Below are positions 8,822 through 36,776 of a stretch of DNA of 64,000 nt, piece after piece. A program made the position numbers and the translations under genes. Source of the DNA: Clavibacter sepedonicus (GTDB taxonomy: Bacteria; Actinomycetota; Actinomycetes; Actinomycetales; Microbacteriaceae); the NCBI RefSeq assembly GCF_000069225.1, contig NC_010407.1, positions 2,480,001-2,544,000 of the forward strand, given 5' to 3'. A model generated the notes under the pieces. That model had not been told where the DNA came from. It worked only from the letters and a program-made list of their open reading frames with translations, and did not search any database. Numbering within the stretch: position 1 is the first letter of the stretch; every line of letters begins with the position of its first letter.

Positions 8822-9723
8822 GCATCCTCGAGCGCCCCACGGGCGCCACCCGCCGCAGGAACGACGGCCAGTTCGACAGCGCGCTCGGCTGGAAGCCCGG
8901 CCTCCGCCCGTCGAACGTGATCCGCTTCGCGCTGTGCGCCGTCGCCTTCGTGGTGTTCGCGGCGCCGTTCGTGATCATCGTGTCCGGCGCGTTCGACGCC
9001 TTCACGTCGTCGACGAGCATCCACCTGTTCCCGCAGCAGCTGTCGCTGGAGTCGTTCCGGGTCGCGTTCGACTCCGGCGTGCTCGGCTACCTCCGCAACT
9101 CGCTCGTGATCGCGGGCGGCGGGCTCGTGCTGCAGGTGAGCGTCGCGATCCTCACGTCCTACGCCCTCGCCCGGCACCGGTTCCGCGGCCAGTCGTTCGT
9201 GCTGCTGCTGTTCCTGCTCACGATGATGCTGCCGGAGGAGGTCATCGCGATCCCGCTGTCGCAGGTCATCGGCGACGTCGGCGGCACGGGGCTCGACCTG
9301 CGCGGGACACCGCTCGGCGTGATCCTGCCGGTGGCGGTGTGGGGCTTCTCGATCCTCGTCATGACGGAGTTCATGAAGGACATCCCCCTCGAGATCGAGG
9401 AGGCCGCGCGCCTCGACGGCTGCGGCGAGCTGCGGATGCTGTGGACCGTGATCCTGCCGCTGTGCAAGCCGGTGCTGGGCGTCGTCACGATCTTCGGCTT
9501 CATGATGATCTGGGACCAGTACCTGCTCCCCCTCATCGCCGCGAACGACCCGAGCGACTACACGCTCACGGTCGCGCTCAGCGTCCTCCGCACCGACCCC
9601 ACGGTCGGCTCGGGCGTCCTGCTCGCGGGAGCGCTGCTCGCGCTCCTGCCGAGCCTCGTCATCTACCTGCTCATGCAGCGGTCGCTCATCCGGGGGATCA
9701 CCTCGGGCGCGACGAAGGGATAG
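8818..9723 (+). CDS. ABC sugar permease, MalG-type subunit
   Basis: A 301-residue partner of the preceding permease. It has six predicted membrane segments and the EAA motif EEAARLDGCGELRMLWTVILP (about residues 198-218). The periplasmic loop after helix 1 (SSTSIHLFPQQLSLESFR) is typical of MalG-like CUT1 proteins. The C-terminus LMQRSLIRGITSGATKG matches the usual ending that contacts the ATPase. The gene starts inside the previous stop codon (ATGA) and is followed after 4 nt by the glucarate dehydratase gene. Confidence 0.92.
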   Translation: MSILERPTGATRRRNDGQFDSALGWKPGLRPSNVIRFALCAVAFVVFAAPFVIIVSGAFDAFTSSTSIHLFPQQLSLESFRVAFDSGVLGYLRNSLVIAGGGLVLQVSVAILTSYALARHRFRGQSFVLLLFLLTMMLPEEVIAIPLSQVIGDVGGTGLDLRGTPLGVILPVAVWGFSILVMTEFMKDIPLEIEEAARLDGCGELRMLWTVILPLCKPVLGVVTIFGFMMIWDQYLLPLIAANDPSDYTLTVALSVLRTDPTVGSGVLLAGALLALLPSLVIYLLMQRSLIRGITSGATKG

Positions 9724-9727
9724 CACC

Positions 9728-10960
9728 ATGATCATCCGCGACCTCGTCGTCACCCCCATCGCGTTCCGCGACCCGCCCCTCCTCAACGCCGACGGCGTGC
9801 ACGAGCCGCTCGCGCTCCGCACGATCGTCGAGCTGGTCGTCGACGGCGGCGTCGTGGGCCTCGGCGAGGGGCAGGGCGGACGGGTCGTGGCGGAGCGCGT
9901 CGCGTCCGTGCGCGACGCCGTCGTCGGCCTCCGCGTGACCGACCTCCACGGCATCGAGCGGGCGGTGGACGCGGCGCTCGGCGGCGACGCCGGGCCGCTC
10001 ACCCGCCAGGAGCGCCGTGTCGTGTACTCCATGATCGACGTGGCCGCGCACGACGCGTGGGGCAGGATCGCGGGGCTGCCCGTGAGCGAGCTGCTCGGCG
10101 GGCGCGTGCGCGACGCCGTGCCGTACAGCGCGTACCTCTTCTACAAGTGGGCCGCGCACCCGGGTGAGGCGCCGGACGCGTTCGGCGAGGCGCTGGATCC
10201 CGCCGGGATCGTCGCGCAGGCCCGCCTCCTCATCGACCGCTACGGCTTCGGCTCCATCAAGCTCAAGGCGGGCGTCTTCCCGCCGGACGAGGAGGTCGCC
10301 GCAATCCGCGCGCTGGCCGAGGCGTTCCCGACGCACCCGCTGCGGATCGACCCGAACGGCGCGTGGACCCATGAGACGGCGCTGCGCGTCGCGGCCGAGC
10401 TCGACGGCGTGCTCGAGTACCTCGAGGATCCGGTGCTCGGCATCGACGGCATGTCCCGCGTCGCAGCCCACGTGCCGCAGCCGCTCGCCACGAACATGTG
10501 CGTCGTGACGTTCGAGCAGATCCGGGAGGCGTTCGCGAAGGACGCCGTGCAGATCGTGCTGTCCGACCACCACTACTGGGGCGGCCTGGCGCACACCCGC
10601 GAGCTCGCGGCCATCTGCCGGACCTTCGGCGTGGGCCTCTCGATGCACTCCAACTCGCACCTCGGGATCTCGCTCGCCGCCATGACGCACGTCGCCGCCG
10701 CCAGCCCCGAGCTCGCCTACGCCTGCGACACGCACTACCCGTGGAACCGCGGCGACGACGTGATCGTGCCGGGCGCGCTCGAGATCGTGGACGGATCCGT
10801 CGCCGTGCCGACCGCCCCCGGCCTCGGCGTCGAGCTCGACCGCGACGCCCTCGCCCGCCAGCACCTGGTGTACGTCGAGTCGGGGCGAACCGTACGCGAC
10901 GACTCCGGCTACATGCGGAGCATCCAGCCCGCCTACGACCCCACCCTCCCGAGGTACTGA
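9728..10960 (+). CDS. gudD: D-glucarate dehydratase (enolase superfamily)
   Basis: A 410-residue enolase-superfamily enzyme. The active-site set of glucarate dehydratase can be followed: the KxK pair Lys178/Lys180 in SIKLKAG, metal ligands Asp208 (RIDPNGAW), Glu233 (LEDPVLG) and Asn256 (TNMCV), Asp280 in SDHHYWGG, and the general base His in MHSNSHLGIS (about residues 307-311). It dehydrates D-glucarate (possibly also L-idarate) to 5-dehydro-4-deoxyglucarate. It lies 4 nt after the permease gene and its stop overlaps the next start (TGATG). Position directly before kdgD confirms the pathway. Galactarate specificity cannot be excluded. Confidence 0.88.
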   Translation: MIIRDLVVTPIAFRDPPLLNADGVHEPLALRTIVELVVDGGVVGLGEGQGGRVVAERVASVRDAVVGLRVTDLHGIERAVDAALGGDAGPLTRQERRVVYSMIDVAAHDAWGRIAGLPVSELLGGRVRDAVPYSAYLFYKWAAHPGEAPDAFGEALDPAGIVAQARLLIDRYGFGSIKLKAGVFPPDEEVAAIRALAEAFPTHPLRIDPNGAWTHETALRVAAELDGVLEYLEDPVLGIDGMSRVAAHVPQPLATNMCVVTFEQIREAFAKDAVQIVLSDHHYWGGLAHTRELAAICRTFGVGLSMHSNSHLGISLAAMTHVAAASPELAYACDTHYPWNRGDDVIVPGALEIVDGSVAVPTAPGLGVELDRDALARQHLVYVESGRTVRDDSGYMRSIQPAYDPTLPRY

Positions 10961-11904
10961 TGACGACGACCGACACCGCCACCACCCCCGCCGGCCTGCT
11001 GCCGCCCCTCGAGGGCGTGCTCTTCTTCCCCGTCACGCCGTTCGACGCCGCCGACCGCGTCGACGTCGACGTGTTCGGCGCGCACGTCGCCCACGGCCTC
11101 GACCAGGGCGCCGGCGCCGCGTTCGTCGCGTGCGGCACGGGCGAGTTCCACGCGCTCGACATCGACGAGTACGCCCAGGCCGTGCGCGCCGGGGTCGCCG
11201 CCGCGGGTGGGCGCCACCTCGTCATCGCGGGGGTCGGCGGGCCGCTCGGGCACGCCCGCCGCTGCGCGCAGCTGGCCACGGAGCTCGGCGCCGACGGGAT
11301 CCTCGTGCTGCCGCCGTACCTCGTCGCCGGCCCGCAGGACGGCCTCGCCGCCTACGTCGAGGCCGTCGCCCACGCGACGCCGCTGCCGCTCATCGCGTAC
11401 CACCGCGGCCAGGCGCAGTTCACGGAGGCCACGGTCGAGCGGCTGCTCGCGCTGCCGACGCTGGCCGGGATCAAGGACGGTGCGGGCGACGTGGCCCTGT
11501 TCCAGCGCTTCGTGCTCGCCGCGCGCCGGGCCGGGCGCGACGACGTGCAGTTCTTCAACGGGCTCCTCACGGCCGAGTCGAGCCAGGCCGCGTACCGGGC
11601 GATCGGCGTGCCGCTGTACTCGTCGGCCGTGTTCGCGATGGCCCCCCGCGTCGCGAGCGCGTTCCACGCGGCCTACCGCGCGGACGACCTCGAGCGGCAG
11701 CGCTTCCTCCTCGACGAGTTCTTCACGCCGCTCGTGCGCCTGCGCGACGAGACGCCCGGGTTCGCGGTGTCGCTCATCAAGGCGGGGCTGCGACTGGGCG
11801 GCGTGCCGGTGGGATCCGTGCGGGCGCCGCTCGTGGATCCGTCGCCGCGGCAGCTCGCCGAGCTCGAGCGGATCCTCGCCCACGGGGAGGACGTCGTCGC
11901 CTGA
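10960..11904 (+). CDS. kdgD: 5-dehydro-4-deoxyglucarate dehydratase
   Basis: A 314-residue class I aldolase-fold enzyme of the DapA/NAL superfamily. LEGVLFFPVTPFD is the family N-terminus, ACGTGEFHALDIDEY holds the carboxylate-binding GTGEF, and the Schiff-base Lys172 is in LAGIKDGAGD. The GTGEF and FFNGL sequences fit 5-dehydro-4-deoxyglucarate dehydratase, which dehydrates and decarboxylates its substrate to 2-oxoglutarate semialdehyde. The ATG shares one base with the gudD stop. The expected next enzyme, 2-oxoglutarate semialdehyde dehydrogenase, is absent: a CTAG site with an IS element follows the stop, and the next gene is convergent and unrelated. Confidence 0.9.
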   Translation: MTTTDTATTPAGLLPPLEGVLFFPVTPFDAADRVDVDVFGAHVAHGLDQGAGAAFVACGTGEFHALDIDEYAQAVRAGVAAAGGRHLVIAGVGGPLGHARRCAQLATELGADGILVLPPYLVAGPQDGLAAYVEAVAHATPLPLIAYHRGQAQFTEATVERLLALPTLAGIKDGAGDVALFQRFVLAARRAGRDDVQFFNGLLTAESSQAAYRAIGVPLYSSAVFAMAPRVASAFHAAYRADDLERQRFLLDEFFTPLVRLRDETPGFAVSLIKAGLRLGGVPVGSVRAPLVDPSPRQLAELERILAHGEDVVA

Positions 11905-11910
11905 GCTAGC

Positions 11911-12963
11911 TGTAGTTCCTCGGGAGGTTGTGAACGCGTGGGCGGATAGCGAAGACCTCCGGGACGATGTGAGTTACCAAGCACACGTCATCACCGGAGG
12001 TCTTCGTGACTCACGCTAACGCCCCGTTCACTCCCGTGGGCAGGCTTCGGCTTGCCCGGTTGATCATCGAGGACGGGTGGCCGGTCCGGCGTGCGGCGGA
12101 GCGGTTCCAGTGCTCGCCGGCGACGGCGTCGAGATGGGCTCGCCGGTATCGGGCCGGGTTGCCGATGACGGACCGCTCATCCCGCCCGCACCGGCAACCG
12201 ACCCGCACGAGTCAGCGTCGGGAGCGGCGGATCATCGCGCTGAGATTCACTCGCCGGTGGGGCCCGCACCGCATCAGCTACCACCTGCGTATCCCCCGTT
12301 CCACGGTCGAGCGGGTCCTCCGTCGCTACCGGATGCCGTTGCTCACGCACCTGGATTCCGCGACGGGACTCCCCGTCCGACGCTCGCCCGCGCGACGTTA
12401 CGAGCACTCCTCACCGGGAGATCTGGTCCACGTCGACATCAAGAAGCTCGGCCGCATCCCGGACGGCGGCGGGCACCGAGTCCTCGGCAGAGCGGCCGGC
12501 CGGAAGAACAACCCCCGGACCGGGCGGGGATACGCGTTCCTGCACCACGCCGTGGATGACCACTCCCGACTCGCGTACTCCGAGATCCTCACCGACGAGC
12601 GCAAGGAGACCGCCGCCGCGTTCTGGGCCCGCGCGAACGCGTTCTTCACCACCGCGGGCATCACCGTGATCCGTGTCCTGACGGACAACGGCTCCTGCTA
12701 CCGCTCCCACGCCTTCACCGAGGCGCTCGGCACCATCGCCCACACACGCACCCGCCCCTACCGGCCCCAGACCAACGGGAAGGTCGAGCGCTTCAACCGC
12801 ACCCTCGCCACCGAGTGGGCCTACGCCCACCCCTACCTCACCGACGAGGCCCGCGCCGCGACCTACCCTGCCTGGCTGCATCACTACAACCACCACCGCC
12901 CCCACACCGGCATCGGCGGACTCACGCCCGCCGAACGCGTTCACAACCTCACTGGGAACTACA
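11911..12963 (+). mobile_element. IS481-family insertion sequence, second type (1053 bp)
   Basis: Imperfect inverted repeats of about 28 bp begin TGTAGTTCC and share GAGGTTGTGAACGCG. The flanks are 6-bp direct repeats GCTAGC at 11905-11910 and 12964-12969. The element lies between the convergent genes kdgD and the YyaL-like gene, whose stop codons were only a few bases apart before insertion. Its transposase is clearly related to, but not the same as, that of elements A and B; the terminal repeats also differ. Confidence 0.95.
11951..12005 (+). promoter_or_regulatory. hairpin sequestering the transposase ribosome-binding site
   Basis: Perfect 12-bp inverted repeats GAAGACCTCCGG (11951-11962) and its complement (11994-12005) flank a 31-nt loop. 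The GGAGG Shine-Dalgarno at 11996-12000 is in the second arm, 5 nt before the GTG start at 12006. Confidence 0.75.
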
Positions 12964-12964
12964 G

Positions 12965-12968
<4 letters not shown>
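12006..12968 (+). CDS. IS481-family DDE transposase, stop codon supplied by target
   Basis: A 320-residue transposase with an N-terminal HTH ([22 protein letters not shown]), a basic linker and the DDE core: [30 protein letters not shown] and [18 protein letters not shown]. It starts with GTG. The inverted repeat ends at 12963, but the reading frame is still open there. The last codons are AGC, made of the final base of the element and two target bases, and TAG, which lies wholly in the duplicated GCTAGC. The element therefore depends on its NCTAGN target to terminate translation. Confidence 0.93.
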
Positions 12969-14896
<1,928 letters not shown>

Positions 14897-32868: not shown

Positions 32869-33864
32869 CTACTTGGCGCCGACGGTGGCCGACGCGTTCG
32901 ACTCGTACGACGTGTTGGTCGACTCGAAGAAGTTGACGAGCTGCAGCGTGTCGTTCGCCGTGGCCATCCATTTCGCCGGGTTCGAGACCTTGTACTCGGC
33001 CTCGAAGCCGAGCTCCTCCAGGCGACGGTCGGCCAGGTACTTCACGTACTGGTTGATGTAGTTCGCGTTCAGCCCGAGGATCCCGTTGGGCAGGAGGTCG
33101 CGGTTGTACTGCTCCTCCATCTCGACGGCGTCGAGGATCATCTGCTTGATCTCGGCGGCGAACTCCTCGGTCTGCAGGTCGGGGTTCTCCTCGAGCACCG
33201 TGAGGATGAGGTTGATCCCGAACTTGAGGTGCAGTGACTCGTCGCGCACGATCCAGTCCATGAGCGAGCCGAAGTTGCGCAGCAGGTTCCGCTGGCGGAA
33301 CGACAGCGACACCATGAAGCCCGAGTAGAACCAGATGCCCTCGAGGATGACGTTGTACGCGACGAGGTTCCGGACGAAGTCCTTCTTGCCCTCGGTGGTG
33401 GTGATGTCGAGGGTCTGCTCGGTCATGCGCTTGATGAACTTGACCTCGAACTCCTCCTTGCGCGCCATCGACGGGATGTCGACGTGGGAGTTGTACGCGG
33501 CCTCGCGGTCGATCGGGAACGTCTCGAGGACGTACTCGAACGACATGCAGTGGTTCGCCTCCTCCCACATCTGCTTCGCGAGGTAGAGGTGGCACTCCGG
33601 CGCGTTGATGTAGGGGTAGACGCCGAACGCGAGCGCCTTGTTCACGAGGAGCTCGTTCGGGTTGAAATAGCTCATGAGGAACGTGATCGCGTGGCGCTCC
33701 TCGTCCGTCATCTTCTTGAAGTCCGCGATGTCCTCGCCGAGCTGGATCTCGTTGGGAAACCACGTGTTGGCGACGGCCTGGTCGTACAGGTCCATGGCCC
33801 ACTGGTAGTTGACGGGCTTGAGGAGGAGGCCCTCCTGGATTCCCGTGCCGAGGATCTTCGACAT
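32869..33864 (-). CDS. nrdB: ribonucleotide reductase small subunit, predicted class Ic (Mn/Fe, radical-less Phe)
   Basis: A 331-residue R2 protein. Aligned by hand with E. coli R2, the metal ligands are Glu71 (Asp84 in E. coli), Glu102, His105, Glu175, Glu209 and His212. The radical tyrosine position (Tyr122) is Phe109 in EANHCMSF. Glu for the first Asp together with Phe for Tyr is the pattern of the Chlamydia class Ic enzyme, which uses a Mn(IV)/Fe(III) centre instead of a tyrosyl radical. The electron path looks complete: Trp35, Asp208, and Tyr320 in the C-terminal tail. GGAGAGAAG precedes the ATG. It is the last gene of an nrdA-microORF-nrdB operon. Confidence 0.93.
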   Translation of the reverse strand: MSKILGTGIQEGLLLKPVNYQWAMDLYDQAVANTWFPNEIQLGEDIADFKKMTDEERHAITFLMSYFNPNELLVNKALAFGVYPYINAPECHLYLAKQMWEEANHCMSFEYVLETFPIDREAAYNSHVDIPSMARKEEFEVKFIKRMTEQTLDITTTEGKKDFVRNLVAYNVILEGIWFYSGFMVSLSFRQRNLLRNFGSLMDWIVRDESLHLKFGINLILTVLEENPDLQTEEFAAEIKQMILDAVEMEEQYNRDLLPNGILGLNANYINQYVKYLADRRLEELGFEAEYKVSNPAKWMATANDTLQLVNFFESTNTSYESNASATVGAK

Positions 33865-33951: not shown

Positions 33952-34029
33952 CTACTGGCAGGAGTCGCACTGGAGCTCGTCCATGGGGTCCATGGGGACG
34001 ACGTAGTCGCCGAACGTGTCGTCGTTCAT
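33952..34029 (-). CDS. 25-residue CxxC peptide, candidate detached NrdA redox tail
   Basis: A 25-codon ORF, MNDDTFGDYVVP...ELQCDSCQ, between nrdA and nrdB. Its ATG shares one base with the nrdA stop (TGATG), and GGGAGG inside the end of nrdA lies 9 nt upstream, so translational coupling is likely. The ending CxxC-Gln looks like the C-terminal cysteine pair with which class I large subunits re-reduce their active site, and NrdA here has no cysteine in its last 60 residues. The peptide could act in trans, or be joined to NrdA by a -1 frameshift. Either reading is inference; the ORF and its signals are seen directly. Confidence 0.6.
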   Translation of the reverse strand: MNDDTFGDYVVPMDPMDELQCDSCQ

Positions 34030-36533
34030 CAGCGTGCACCTCCCACTCCGCCGAAGCCGAAGCCCTTGCGGGGCGCCGGGGCGGACTGCGGGGCCGGGGC
34101 CTCCGCGGTCGCGGTGGATGCGGGAGCCGCCGAGGCCGGCACGGCCGCGGGTGCGCCGCCGCCGAATCCGCCGAAGCCCTTGCGCTTCGTGCCGTCGGCG
34201 TCCTGCGACTTGTCGACCTTGACGGTCGACTGCTCGGCCGTGTGACGGGGCTTCATGTGCAGGTAGTACGTGGTCTTGACCCCGCGCTCCCAGCCGGCGA
34301 AGTAGATGTCCATCATGTCGCCGAGGTCGCGCGTCTCGAGGTACATGTTGCGGCTGATGGCCTGGTCGATCCACTTCTGCGCGCGGGCCGCGACCTCGAG
34401 GAACGCGTACGGCGAGAGCTGGAAGCTCGTGCGGTACGTGGCCTTGACGTGGTCCGGGATCGCGGCGATGTTCTGGATGTCGCCCTGGCTGCGCAGGATG
34501 TTCTCGCGCACGGTCTCCCAGATGCCGAGCTCCTGCAGGTCCTTCACCAGGTTCCGGTTGACCTCGAGGAACTTGCCCGAGGAGGTGGAGCGGCTGAAGA
34601 TCTGCGAGAACTGCGGGTCGAGGCCGGGCGTGGTGCCGGCGACGAGGCCGATGGACGCGGTGGGCGCGATCGCCATGAGCGTCGCGTTCCTCATGCCGCC
34701 CTTGACCTTGGCGCGCAGCGCGTCCCAGTCGAGGCGCGTGGTGCGGTTGACCTTGACGGGCACGCCGCGGTCGGCCTCCATGAGCGCGATCGAGTCGAGC
34801 GGCACGAGGCCCTCCGACCAGCGCGAGCCCTCGAAGTTCGGGTACGCGCCGCGCTCCTTCGCGAGATCGGCCGACTCGTCGATGGCTGCGTAGGAGACGT
34901 GCTCCATGATCTCGTCGATCAGGTCGTAGCTCTCCTCCGACTCGTACGAGAAGCCGAGCTTCTCGACGATGTCGGTGAAGCCCATGACGCCGAGGCCCAC
35001 CGCGCGGTTCTGCTGGTTGGAGAAGTCCGCCTCCTTCACGCTGGAGCGCGTGATGTCGATGAGGTTGTCGAGCTGGCGCACCGCGAGGCGCGCGCTCTGC
35101 TCGATCTTCGCGAAGTCGACCTTGCCGTCGGCGAAGTGCTGCGACAGGTTGATCGACGCCAGGTTGCAGACGGAGACGTTGTCCTCGTCCTGCGGCAGCG
35201 TGATCTCGGTGCAGAGGTTCGAGAGGTGGATCGTGCCCGTGTTGTTGTTCAGGGCGCGGTTGTTGATCGTGTCCTTCCAGGTCAGCCACGGGTGGCTGGT
35301 GGTCTGGAGCGAGATGAGGATCGACTTGAACTGCTCGCGCGCATTGATGCGCTTGAACATGCGGATGCGCCCGGCCTCGGCCTCGCCGACGTAGAACGCG
35401 TAGCGCTCCGAGAACGCCTTGCCGTACAGCTCGTTGAGGTCGGAGACCTCCAGCGGGTCGAAGAGGTACCAGTCCTCGTCGTTCTGCACGCGCTTCATGA
35501 ACTCGTCGCTGATCCACACGGCCGTGTTGGCGGTGCGGGTGCGGCGGTACGGGTCGCCCGAGTTCTGGCGCAGGTCGAGGAACTCGGGGAAGTCGAGGTG
35601 CCAGTTCTCCATGTAGAAGCACAGGGCGCCGAACTTCTTGCCGCCGCGGCTGACGGCGCGGAGCACCGAGTCGATGGTGTGCATGAACGGGATCGGGCCC
35701 GTGGAGGTGGTGTTGTTCGAGCGGATGGGCGAGCCCTGCGCGCGCAGCTTGGAGACGGAGAGGCCGATGCCGCCCGTGCCCTTGGTGAGCCACATGACGT
35801 CGCGCGTGGTCTTCGCGATGTGCTCGATGTCGTCCTGCATCTCCATGACGAAGCAGTTCGCGAGCTGCGGGTAGATGGTGCCCGCGTTGACGAGGGTGGA
35901 GCCGGCCGCGAGGTACTCGAGCTTCGACATCTTCTCGTAGAAGGCGATGGCCGTCTCGGTGGGGTTCTGCTCGTTGAGCGTGAGGCCCATCGCGATGCGC
36001 ATCCAGAAGTACTGGGGCACCTCGAGGGCGTCGCCGTTGCGGCCCTTGATGCCGTAGCGGTTGTTCAGTGTGACGACGCCGATGTACTTGAGCAGCTCGT
36101 CGTGCGCGGGCTCAAGGGCCTGGGCGAGGCGCTCGAGGTCGAACAGCTGCACGAGGCGGGAGTCGAGGAGCATCTCGTCGACGCCGCGCTGGATGTTGCG
36201 GGCGAAGTGCTCCGCGTGGAGGCGCTTGAGCTCCTCGGGCGACGAGTAGTCGCCGAGGACGCGCTTGTAGATGGTCTTGAGGAGCAGGCGCGCGGCGACG
36301 GTGTCGAACGCCGGGTCGTCCTTCACGTTCTGGAGTGCGACCTGGATGACGGCCTCATCCAGCTGCTGCGTGGTGATCCCGTCGAAGAGGGTGATCTCCA
36401 GCTCGGACGCGATCTGCGTGACCCAGCCGATGTTCTCGTCGAGGCCCTGCGTCGCGTCCTCGATCGCCAGGTTGATCCTGTTCGCGTCGTACGGCTCCTT
36501 CGAGCCGTCCCTCTTGACTACCGTGATCGACAC
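34029..36533 (-). CDS. nrdA: ribonucleotide reductase large subunit
   Basis: An 834-residue R1 protein reducing ribonucleoside diphosphates. The ATP cone (about residues 1-92) starts ITVVKRDGSKEPYDANRIN. Active-site cysteines are Cys227 (YPQLANCFVM), the radical Cys in HLSNLCTEITLP and Cys in SVCNLASINLSQ; the tyrosine pair is in KTTYYLHMKPR. After about residue 770 the protein becomes a Lys/Gly/Phe then Ala/Pro/Ser linker with two KGFG(G)F repeats, ending KGFGFGGVGGAR without cysteines. The start is GTG at 36533 with AAGGAG about 11 nt upstream; an ATG at 36540 is out of frame. Transcription should come from the region with NrdR- and DnaA-like boxes. Confidence 0.95.
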   Translation of the reverse strand: MSITVVKRDGSKEPYDANRINLAIEDATQGLDENIGWVTQIASELEITLFDGITTQQLDEAVIQVALQNVKDDPAFDTVAARLLLKTIYKRVLGDYSSPEELKRLHAEHFARNIQRGVDEMLLDSRLVQLFDLERLAQALEPAHDELLKYIGVVTLNNRYGIKGRNGDALEVPQYFWMRIAMGLTLNEQNPTETAIAFYEKMSKLEYLAAGSTLVNAGTIYPQLANCFVMEMQDDIEHIAKTTRDVMWLTKGTGGIGLSVSKLRAQGSPIRSNNTTSTGPIPFMHTIDSVLRAVSRGGKKFGALCFYMENWHLDFPEFLDLRQNSGDPYRRTRTANTAVWISDEFMKRVQNDEDWYLFDPLEVSDLNELYGKAFSERYAFYVGEAEAGRIRMFKRINAREQFKSILISLQTTSHPWLTWKDTINNRALNNNTGTIHLSNLCTEITLPQDEDNVSVCNLASINLSQHFADGKVDFAKIEQSARLAVRQLDNLIDITRSSVKEADFSNQQNRAVGLGVMGFTDIVEKLGFSYESEESYDLIDEIMEHVSYAAIDESADLAKERGAYPNFEGSRWSEGLVPLDSIALMEADRGVPVKVNRTTRLDWDALRAKVKGGMRNATLMAIAPTASIGLVAGTTPGLDPQFSQIFSRSTSSGKFLEVNRNLVKDLQELGIWETVRENILRSQGDIQNIAAIPDHVKATYRTSFQLSPYAFLEVAARAQKWIDQAISRNMYLETRDLGDMMDIYFAGWERGVKTTYYLHMKPRHTAEQSTVKVDKSQDADGTKRKGFGGFGGGAPAAVPASAAPASTATAEAPAPQSAPAPRKGFGFGGVGGAR

Positions 36534-36637
36534 TCTGCATCTGCTCCTTGGGGTGACGGGCGCTCGAAAGGAGGGCTTGCCTCCCCCGACGAAATCAGCC
36601 GATCAGGCCTGTATCTGTGGGTTCCACTGCGAAGAAT

Positions 36638-36693
36638 GGGGGCCCCGACATATAGTGGCCTTCGGCTGAAGGCCACTATATGTCGGGGCCCCC
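36638..36693. promoter_or_regulatory. perfect 26-bp inverted repeat with NrdR-like boxes upstream of nrdA
   Basis: Arms 36638-36663 and 36668-36693 are perfectly complementary, with loop GGCT. Each arm contains a sequence like half of the NrdR box consensus: GACATATAGTGG and its complement CCACTATATGTC. It lies 105-160 bp upstream of nrdA. In DNA it may be a pair of operators; in RNA it would be a very stable hairpin. Confidence 0.7.
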
Positions 36694-36704
36694 AGACACG
36701 CCAA

Positions 36705-36776
36705 CCACCACATGTTGTGGGCGTGTCATCCACAGATGTGCGTAAGTTCGCGGAGTTCTCCTCACCCTGTGGACTC
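36705..36776 (-). promoter_or_regulatory. diverged copy of the NrdR/DnaA box module (nrdA side)
   Basis: A third NrdR-like box (ACATGTTGTGG, 36710-36720) is followed by GGGCGTGTCATCCACAGATGTG and further on by TGTGGACTCCGCGG. The same series, with a few changes, is found at 37260-37306. TCATCCACA (36726-36734) and TGTGGACTC (36768-36776) are imperfect DnaA boxes. Confidence 0.5.

Follow-up and report, generated by a model that had tools for sequence, protein, structure and literature searches.

In Escherichia coli, the large subunit of class I ribonucleotide reductase (RNR), NrdA, bears a C-terminal CxxC tail in the same chain, and in yeast the C-terminal domain of Rnr1 acts in trans on the active site of the neighbouring subunit. 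Phage-encoded RNRs supply RNR function for DNA synthesis. In class I and class II enzymes, a C-terminal cysteine pair reduces the active-site disulfide and is itself reduced by thioredoxin or glutaredoxin, as stated in the available parts of two papers (PMC4390871, PMC4520616), and the accessible text of a third describes the pair as "almost exclusively" present in class I RNRs (PMC9669993). The nearest described system that we found, as far as the available text of PMC4520616 describes it, is class II NrdJa/NrdJb of Pseudomonas aeruginosa, in which the redox-active C-terminal cysteines reside on a separate chain and serve the catalytic subunit by disulfide exchange; the two proteins are presumed to be derived from one chain, and NrdJb is required in vivo and was expressed and purified on its own. 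Here we describe a 64,000-nucleotide stretch of the Clavibacter sepedonicus genome (contig NC_010407.1, positions 2,480,001 to 2,544,000, hereafter the window), in which nrdA codes for a large subunit without C-terminal cysteine pair and is overlapped at its stop codon by a 25-codon open reading frame (ORF). Comparison with relatives indicates that this ORF very probably encodes the redox tail of a class I NrdA as a separate, trans-acting protein, that is, a third RNR component. Our search of the open-access literature, with subscription papers and preprints outside its scope, retrieved no earlier account of a separately encoded class I NrdA tail.

Results

The nrdA locus

The window's NrdA is the sole NrdA match in its genome at E ≤ 0.001. 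A Pfam scan assigned the domains PF02867, PF00317 and PF03477 (barrel, all-alpha and ATP-cone), and among the NCBIfam models NF005101 covers the full length of the protein with 1740.5 bits, compared to at most 380.2 bits for models of B12-dependent class II enzymes. C227, C441, C456, N439 and E443, which we take to be the equivalents of the E. coli active-site residues, are invariant in an alignment of 44 rows. By its predicted domains, active site and nrdB partner the protein fits a class I large subunit, but it does not fit by a cysteine pair in the same chain: no cysteine follows the catalytic domain in the window's linker or in any of 97 distinct tails of split-type NrdAs, as opposed to 21 of 21 fused tails. 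The microprotein ATG (34029-34027) shares bases with the nrdA TGA in a TGATG junction, and the ORF lies in the -1 frame relative to nrdA. Both the cysteine-free end of NrdA and the overlapping ORF with GGGAGG inside nrdA had been noticed in an earlier sequence-only reading and were found at the expected coordinates (Table 1). Identical peptide and TGATG junction were present in all 18 genomes of the genus, including the window's own, which contains two further copies of the peptide (position 2769069 of contig C2 and position 39733 of C1, a contig of 50 kb).

Table 1. Features of the nrdA locus, in positions of the window
Feature	Position	Strand	Details
nrdA, class I RNR large subunit without C-terminal cysteine pair	34029..36533	minus	834 aa; GTG start at 36533, TGA stop at 34031-34029
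Predicted redox-tail microprotein gene	33952..34029	minus	25 codons plus stop, encodes MNDDTFGDYVVPMDPMDELQCDSCQ; conserved; homologous to fused tails of relatives
Shine-Dalgarno-like GGGAGG within nrdA	34039..34044	minus	9 nt ahead of the ATG; read directly
Ala/Pro/Gly linker of NrdA	34032..34260	minus	two [KR]GFG motifs, the last a candidate docking site
Three NrdR-box-like sites 5' of nrdA	36643..36720	minus	36720-36705 CCACAACATGTGGTGG; 36688-36673 CCCCGACATATAGTGG; 36658-36643 CCACTATATGTCGGGG
nrdB, class I small subunit	32869..33864	minus	331 aa; PF00268 and NF007186; starts 87 nt past the microprotein stop

Conservation of the adjacent reading frame

The 3' ends of nrdA were compared in 124 loci of relatives, consisting of 44 loci and a further 80 named ones with some species in both sets; counts of distinct sequences, from 76 to 78, are therefore given as well. 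On one contig (L083) the nrdA stop was missing, which left 123 complete split-type loci, and none of these has a continuous reading frame through the CxxC. The order nrdA, peptide, nrdB was found in 120 of the 124 loci (one is cut and three lack an adjacent ORF), with nrdB present in all 120 loci that have the adjacent peptide. Relative to nrdA, the ORF is in frame +2 in 105 loci, in frame 0 in 10 and in frame +1 in five; among 78 distinct loci, 67 share the frame of the window, eight are in frame 0 and three in frame +1. Of these 78 peptide starts, 25 are at -1 and 34 at +2, which both correspond to a start/stop overlap, and the remaining 19 are at -5, +3, +5, +6, +8, +19, +29 or +61. The encoded peptides vary in length from about 21 to 57 residues.

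At the amino acid level the small ORF proved to be strongly conserved: in the final 16 codons, compared among 76 distinct sequences, pN/pS is 0.25 and ten positions are invariant, where the motif used to pick the ORFs fixes P-M, C, S, C and Q of the conserved stretch; the three of 123 complete loci that failed this motif are those without such an ORF. Since 120 of 124 loci hold an ORF in this place and pN/pS is 0.25, the adjacent ORF exceeds chance expectation and has the signature of purifying selection. The two outcomes that the sequence-only reading had named as refuting, an uninterrupted NrdA frame in relatives and missing conservation of the peptide, were thus not obtained in the split-type loci. 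Shine-Dalgarno-like words precede 21 of the 78 distinct starts, which were chosen independently of such words, compared to 9% of control windows.

Origin of the separate tail

In a class-wide draw of 394 genomes, the degenerate DNA pattern that we used to find copies of the peptide (D-P-M-[DE]-x-x-x-C-[DE]-S-C-Q) matched in the window's genome only; the pattern requires M after D-P, so that DPQ tails escape it. An NrdA with 63-74% identity to that of the window occurs in 24 other genomes of this draw, and in 21 of these proteins the C-terminus is a fused tail, ..CPVDPQERLQCESCQ or closely similar to it, for example ..ACPVDPQERLQCESCQ. In close NrdAs of other families such a tail reads, for instance, ..VACPVDPMEALQCESCQ. 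The other three comprise two NrdAs cut by contig ends and one tail-less protein (L323). More distant NrdAs with approximately 40% identity end in ECEACQ in all five cases fetched. Of 297 genomes drawn from the whole order, 22 matched the pattern, namely that of the window and 21 of other families, and in all of the latter the match is the in-frame end of a fused NrdA with the consensus ..CP[VI]DPME[AR]LQC[ED]SCQ, reading ..CPVDPMERLQCESCQ, ..CPVDPMEALQCESCQ or close to these; four genomes of one family (f52) in this draw had no pattern match.

A profile built from 54 split peptides only was compared with 3274 translated segments from 29 outgroup loci and matched NrdA ORFs alone, at 21 loci, 16 of them with E ≤ 0.0021 and five weakly (0.025 to 4.6). 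Each of these 21 loci has an alignment that reaches the last residue and five also show an extra internal stretch, which shows the small peptides to be homologous to the fused tails. The profile found no match in the remaining eight outgroup loci, namely the five with NrdAs of about 40% identity, the two cut by contig ends, and L323.

Phylogenetic trees were calculated from NrdA cores after removal of the tails and after thinning the 123 split-type loci to 71 by dropping near-identical sequences; the cut L313 and the long-branched L323 were included in the first tree and not in the second. In the tree of 119 cores, all 71 split NrdAs form one clade with an SH-aLRT of 100, and the sister group consists of 22 fused NrdAs of the same order (the parent node is printed as 99). 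One fused NrdA of the same order (L358) was placed outside the sister group. Since all 71 split NrdAs are monophyletic, the sampled tree is explained by a single gene fission that occurred in the ancestor of those Microbacteriaceae that have this NrdA.

Copies away from nrdA

Among 199 Microbacteriaceae genomes, 91 contain this NrdA (at least 73% identity over the matched part) and all 91 contain the peptide pattern, which is absent from 106 of the 108 family genomes without this NrdA. A control pattern read backwards matched in none of the 199 genomes. All three loci without adjacent ORF, from Naasia lichenicola and two metagenome-assembled genomes, belong to genomes with one peptide copy elsewhere, encoding 27 residues from an ATG. 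In a fourth genome (G138) nrdA is directly followed by nrdB and two peptide copies are located elsewhere, so that the peptide is encoded only away from nrdA. The adjacent copy was lost at least twice, as L082 is separate from L101 and L102 in the tree.

Further copies were found in 81 of the 93 positive genomes: 12 genomes have one copy in total, 60 have two, 17 have three, two have four and two have five. These counts are lower limits because the pattern missed an adjacent CEGCQ variant in one genome (G083), which retains both cysteines when read independently of the motif. Five tail-peptide copies each were observed in G068 and G057 (L282-L287). Of 35 examined loci around pattern matches (L125-L159), 22 are free-standing with neither nrdA nor nrdB in the stretch. 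Most free-standing copies resemble MDN..DTVGGYAVPVDPMDLLQCDSCQ, and in 19 of the 22 cases (the exceptions are L129, L141 and L148) one dehydratase-like protein, presumably MaoC-like, matches 74-1150 nt downstream. By eye, a terminator-like inverted repeat was recognized 3' of the free-standing gene in L125-L127 and L281. The 64 neighbouring ORFs of extra copies, pooled from 15 loci with exclusion of L293 and L295, gave single matches to SSB, CHAP, M23, VanY and HTH families, which suggests that these extra copies may lie on plasmids or prophages.

Copies in phages and plasmids

Viral contigs contain at least 120 stretches with the peptide pattern, of which 80 loci were kept for analysis. In all 80, a stop codon directly follows the motif, although the pattern does not demand it. 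The loci encode 58 distinct peptides, and variation is greatest at third codon positions. Searching 50,697 phage records, we found the peptide in the Clavibacter phages CN1A and CMP1 (both present twice, once in GenBank and once in RefSeq), Pontimonas phage phiPsal1 and Pseudanabaena phage Pan2. No NrdA match was obtained in the four isolated peptide-bearing phage records or in 22 viral records searched whole, many of which are fragments; as a control, the same search does detect NrdA in the record of L224. This is the only one of the 80 viral loci with nrdA and nrdB in the stretch: at positions 9665-13979, the peptide gene is followed by a tail-less nrdA with an insert of approximately 300 codons near query residue 441, a putative intein by its size and place, and by nrdB. 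An NrdR-like sequence ACACTATATCTACGCG lies 5' of this peptide gene.

Neighbouring ORFs were called longest-first, and with omission of L224 we scanned 77 of 78 upstream and 74 of 75 downstream ORFs. Upstream of the 77 phage copies, holins (18 with phrog_443, plus smaller groups), 16 terminase large subunits and six DNA polymerase exonuclease subunits were found, and the downstream neighbours of the 74 copies include 13 portal proteins. The scattered positions look like those of cargo that was inserted at several places. The holin and endolysin neighbours led us to consider a role of the phage copies in lysis, which we set aside because other copies are located between terminase and portal genes or close to genes for DNA polymerase.

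Among 72,556 plasmid records, 18 contain the peptide, 14 of them from Clavibacter, three from Leifsonia and one from Gryllotalpicola. In Leifsonia plasmid NZ_CP065038.1 (49231-49332, L333), the match is annotated as a 33-residue peptide, WP_223361114.1, under the name 'ribonucleotide-diphosphate reductase subunit beta'. In three of the isolated phages nothing is annotated at the match. In Pan2 (L332, ON968453.1, 21250-21333), the coding sequence Pan2_27 is annotated in a different frame from the tail ORF MDDFDTIDGFACPNDPADLVSCESCQ. The tail gene is otherwise seen with actinobacterial hosts and Pan2 is assigned to a cyanobacterium, which raises a question about the true host of this phage.

NrdR-like sites

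Upstream regions were scored against ACACWATATWTWGTGT, which we assume to be the NrdR consensus. In 62 of 78 regions upstream of nrdA (78 of the 80 named loci had sufficient upstream sequence), the best site reached at least 12 of 16 positions, compared to about 2% (2.1%) of shuffled sequences, and the same was true for 18 of 22 regions upstream of free-standing copies, compared to 1.6% of shuffled sequences. Among 78 control windows inside nrdA none contained such a site. The three sites of the window itself each match 11 of 16 positions; shuffled 400-bp regions attain this score in 11% of cases. The genes of the split RNR thus carry putative sites of the NrdR-regulon type, with the case resting on the relatives rather than on the window's own sites. 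A long inverted repeat was additionally noticed 5' of nrdA (36637-36694), with arms around GGGGCCCCGACATATAGTGGCCTTC and its complement separated by a short loop, and it holds two of the NrdR-like sites.

Discussion

The NrdA of the split system keeps its active site without a cysteine pair, the small peptide has such a pair and descends from the tail, and a trans-acting peptide that binds to NrdA is therefore expected. We propose that translation of the peptide begins at a start codon of its own, which often overlaps the nrdA stop, that the peptide would bind to the NrdA dimer with the CxxC entering the active site, and that it would reduce the disulfide left there by each turnover before thioredoxin or a redoxin of similar type re-reduces it. 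The peptide would thereby amount to a third, exchangeable subunit. A trans-acting microprotein was one of the options raised by the sequence-only reading and has gained strong support from the occurrence of starts in all frames, from the genomes that encode the peptide only elsewhere and from the free-standing state of 22 of 35 examined loci; the redox function is suggested by the fused homologues. A candidate dock for the peptide is the terminal [KR]GF motif of NrdA, because G826-F827 are the only invariant residues near the end of the protein in the 44 rows, and because 77 of the 97 distinct split tails contain two [KR]GF[GA] motifs and 17 of 21 fused tails contain one.

Several observations weigh against this interpretation. 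The CxxC letters of all copies found by pattern were built into the search. Two draft genomes, G128 (77% complete) and G186 (94%), contain the peptide without an NrdA match, for which we assume an assembly gap. Shine-Dalgarno-like words are enriched yet not general, with only 21 of 78 starts having one. Phage copies are often located 3' of holin or endolysin genes, a late position that is unexpected for a gene serving the synthesis of DNA precursors. An AlphaFold model of NrdA, calculated from the 44 close rows, was poor, with a mean pLDDT of 51.8. Finally, the tail-less NrdA of L323 (genome G472), with 63% identity to that of the window, is placed outside the split clade, and neither the peptide nor nrdB was seen within the examined stretch, the rest of this genome not having been searched; perhaps it represents a second, independent loss or split.

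Alternatively, the peptide may have turned into a regulator of RNR, either as an inhibitor binding to the active site or as a redox sensor, with the phage copies acting as decoys. A free tail is in principle a ligand of the active site, the copies differ from each other in their N-terminal parts, and phages with no detected NrdA bear the peptide. However, the tail cysteines of NrdA are gone in 97 of 97 distinct tails, while such a pair serves turnover in class I and class II RNRs according to the available parts of PMC4520616 and PMC4390871, and both cysteines are retained in all 76 distinct adjacent sequences, where the motif includes them, as well as in the copy of G083 that was read without the motif. 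We consider a purely regulatory function improbable. It is still less probable that the tail is made apart and then covalently joined to NrdA by some ligation, for which the invariant terminal [KR]GF motif might offer a joining site; the operon of nrdA, peptide gene and nrdB implies no known ligation system, a ligase or split intein not having been searched for.

The second option of the sequence-only reading had been a -1 frameshift. A programmed frameshift of this kind, or read-through of the stop codon, would fuse the tail to NrdA in one chain of 859 residues, and the window itself seems to invite this view, as its ORF is in the -1 frame and overlaps the stop; the frame is the same in 67 of 78 distinct loci. 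With eight of 78 ORFs in frame 0, three in frame +1 and starts up to 61 nt past the stop, no shared frameshift or read-through could give the fusion because the ORFs start in all three frames, and the four genomes without adjacent copy, the free-standing copies and the phages with the peptide and no detected nrdA likewise argue against it. As a general mechanism, fusion is refuted, and for the window itself we regard it as scarcely credible. The dull explanation considered at the outset, one gene broken by a sequencing error or by a recent mutation, is suggested only by the look of the TGATG junction in one genome and has a negligible probability. Peptide starts occur in all frames, in four genomes every copy lies away from nrdA, all 18 genomes of the genus (18 of 18) share the junction, purifying selection is seen in 76 distinct sequences, and the split NrdAs form a single old clade.

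Returning to a trans-acting redox tail, free-standing copies with NrdR-like sites may make the supply of the peptide adjustable apart from nrdA, and phage and plasmid copies probably keep the host RNR reduced during the synthesis of their own DNA. With an exchangeable tail, dNTP synthesis could be held back or raised by the amount of tail available. We slightly favour the full model derived from this, a three-component class I RNR with its redox step on a diffusible microprotein of approximately 25 residues, the supply of which limits or boosts dNTP synthesis, is set by the cell through a separate NrdR-like promoter and is exploited by phages and plasmids carrying the tail gene alone. If this is true, the mobile tail gene would be an auxiliary gene of about 25 codons that recharges a host enzyme. 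The swinging cysteine tail is commonly regarded as an inherent component of class I RNR, and a natural version as a free peptide would allow the redox step to be titrated, swapped or labelled apart from catalysis. More generally, the tail of a working protein can apparently turn into an independent gene, which then acquires additional copies under different promoters and spreads with phages and plasmids, and such genes are easily missed or misnamed in annotation.

Comparison with known systems

The fused tails of related actinomycetes belong to the same sequence family as the peptide and also have CxxCQ at the very end, and the respective NrdAs are 67-75% identical to that of the window; there, however, the tail is part of NrdA, whereas in the clade described here each of the 71 members has a separate gene for it. 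With yeast Rnr1, the split system would share a tail that reduces the active site of another chain, as proposed here, but the tail of Rnr1 is still part of the large subunit. Compared to phages that encode an RNR, the phages described here bring the tail peptide without a detected NrdA (none in four isolated phages or in 22 viral records).

NrdJb is larger than a tail, and the separate part of the system described here has only about 25 residues. NrdJ is a B12-dependent class II enzyme, in contrast to the class I NrdA with its nrdB partner. The likeness of the two systems lies in the location of redox cysteines on a separate polypeptide; for the peptide described here, the separate coding is shown by sequence and a requirement for turnover is predicted. 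The additional copies and the spread on mobile elements that we observed are unmentioned for NrdJ in the available text of PMC4520616.

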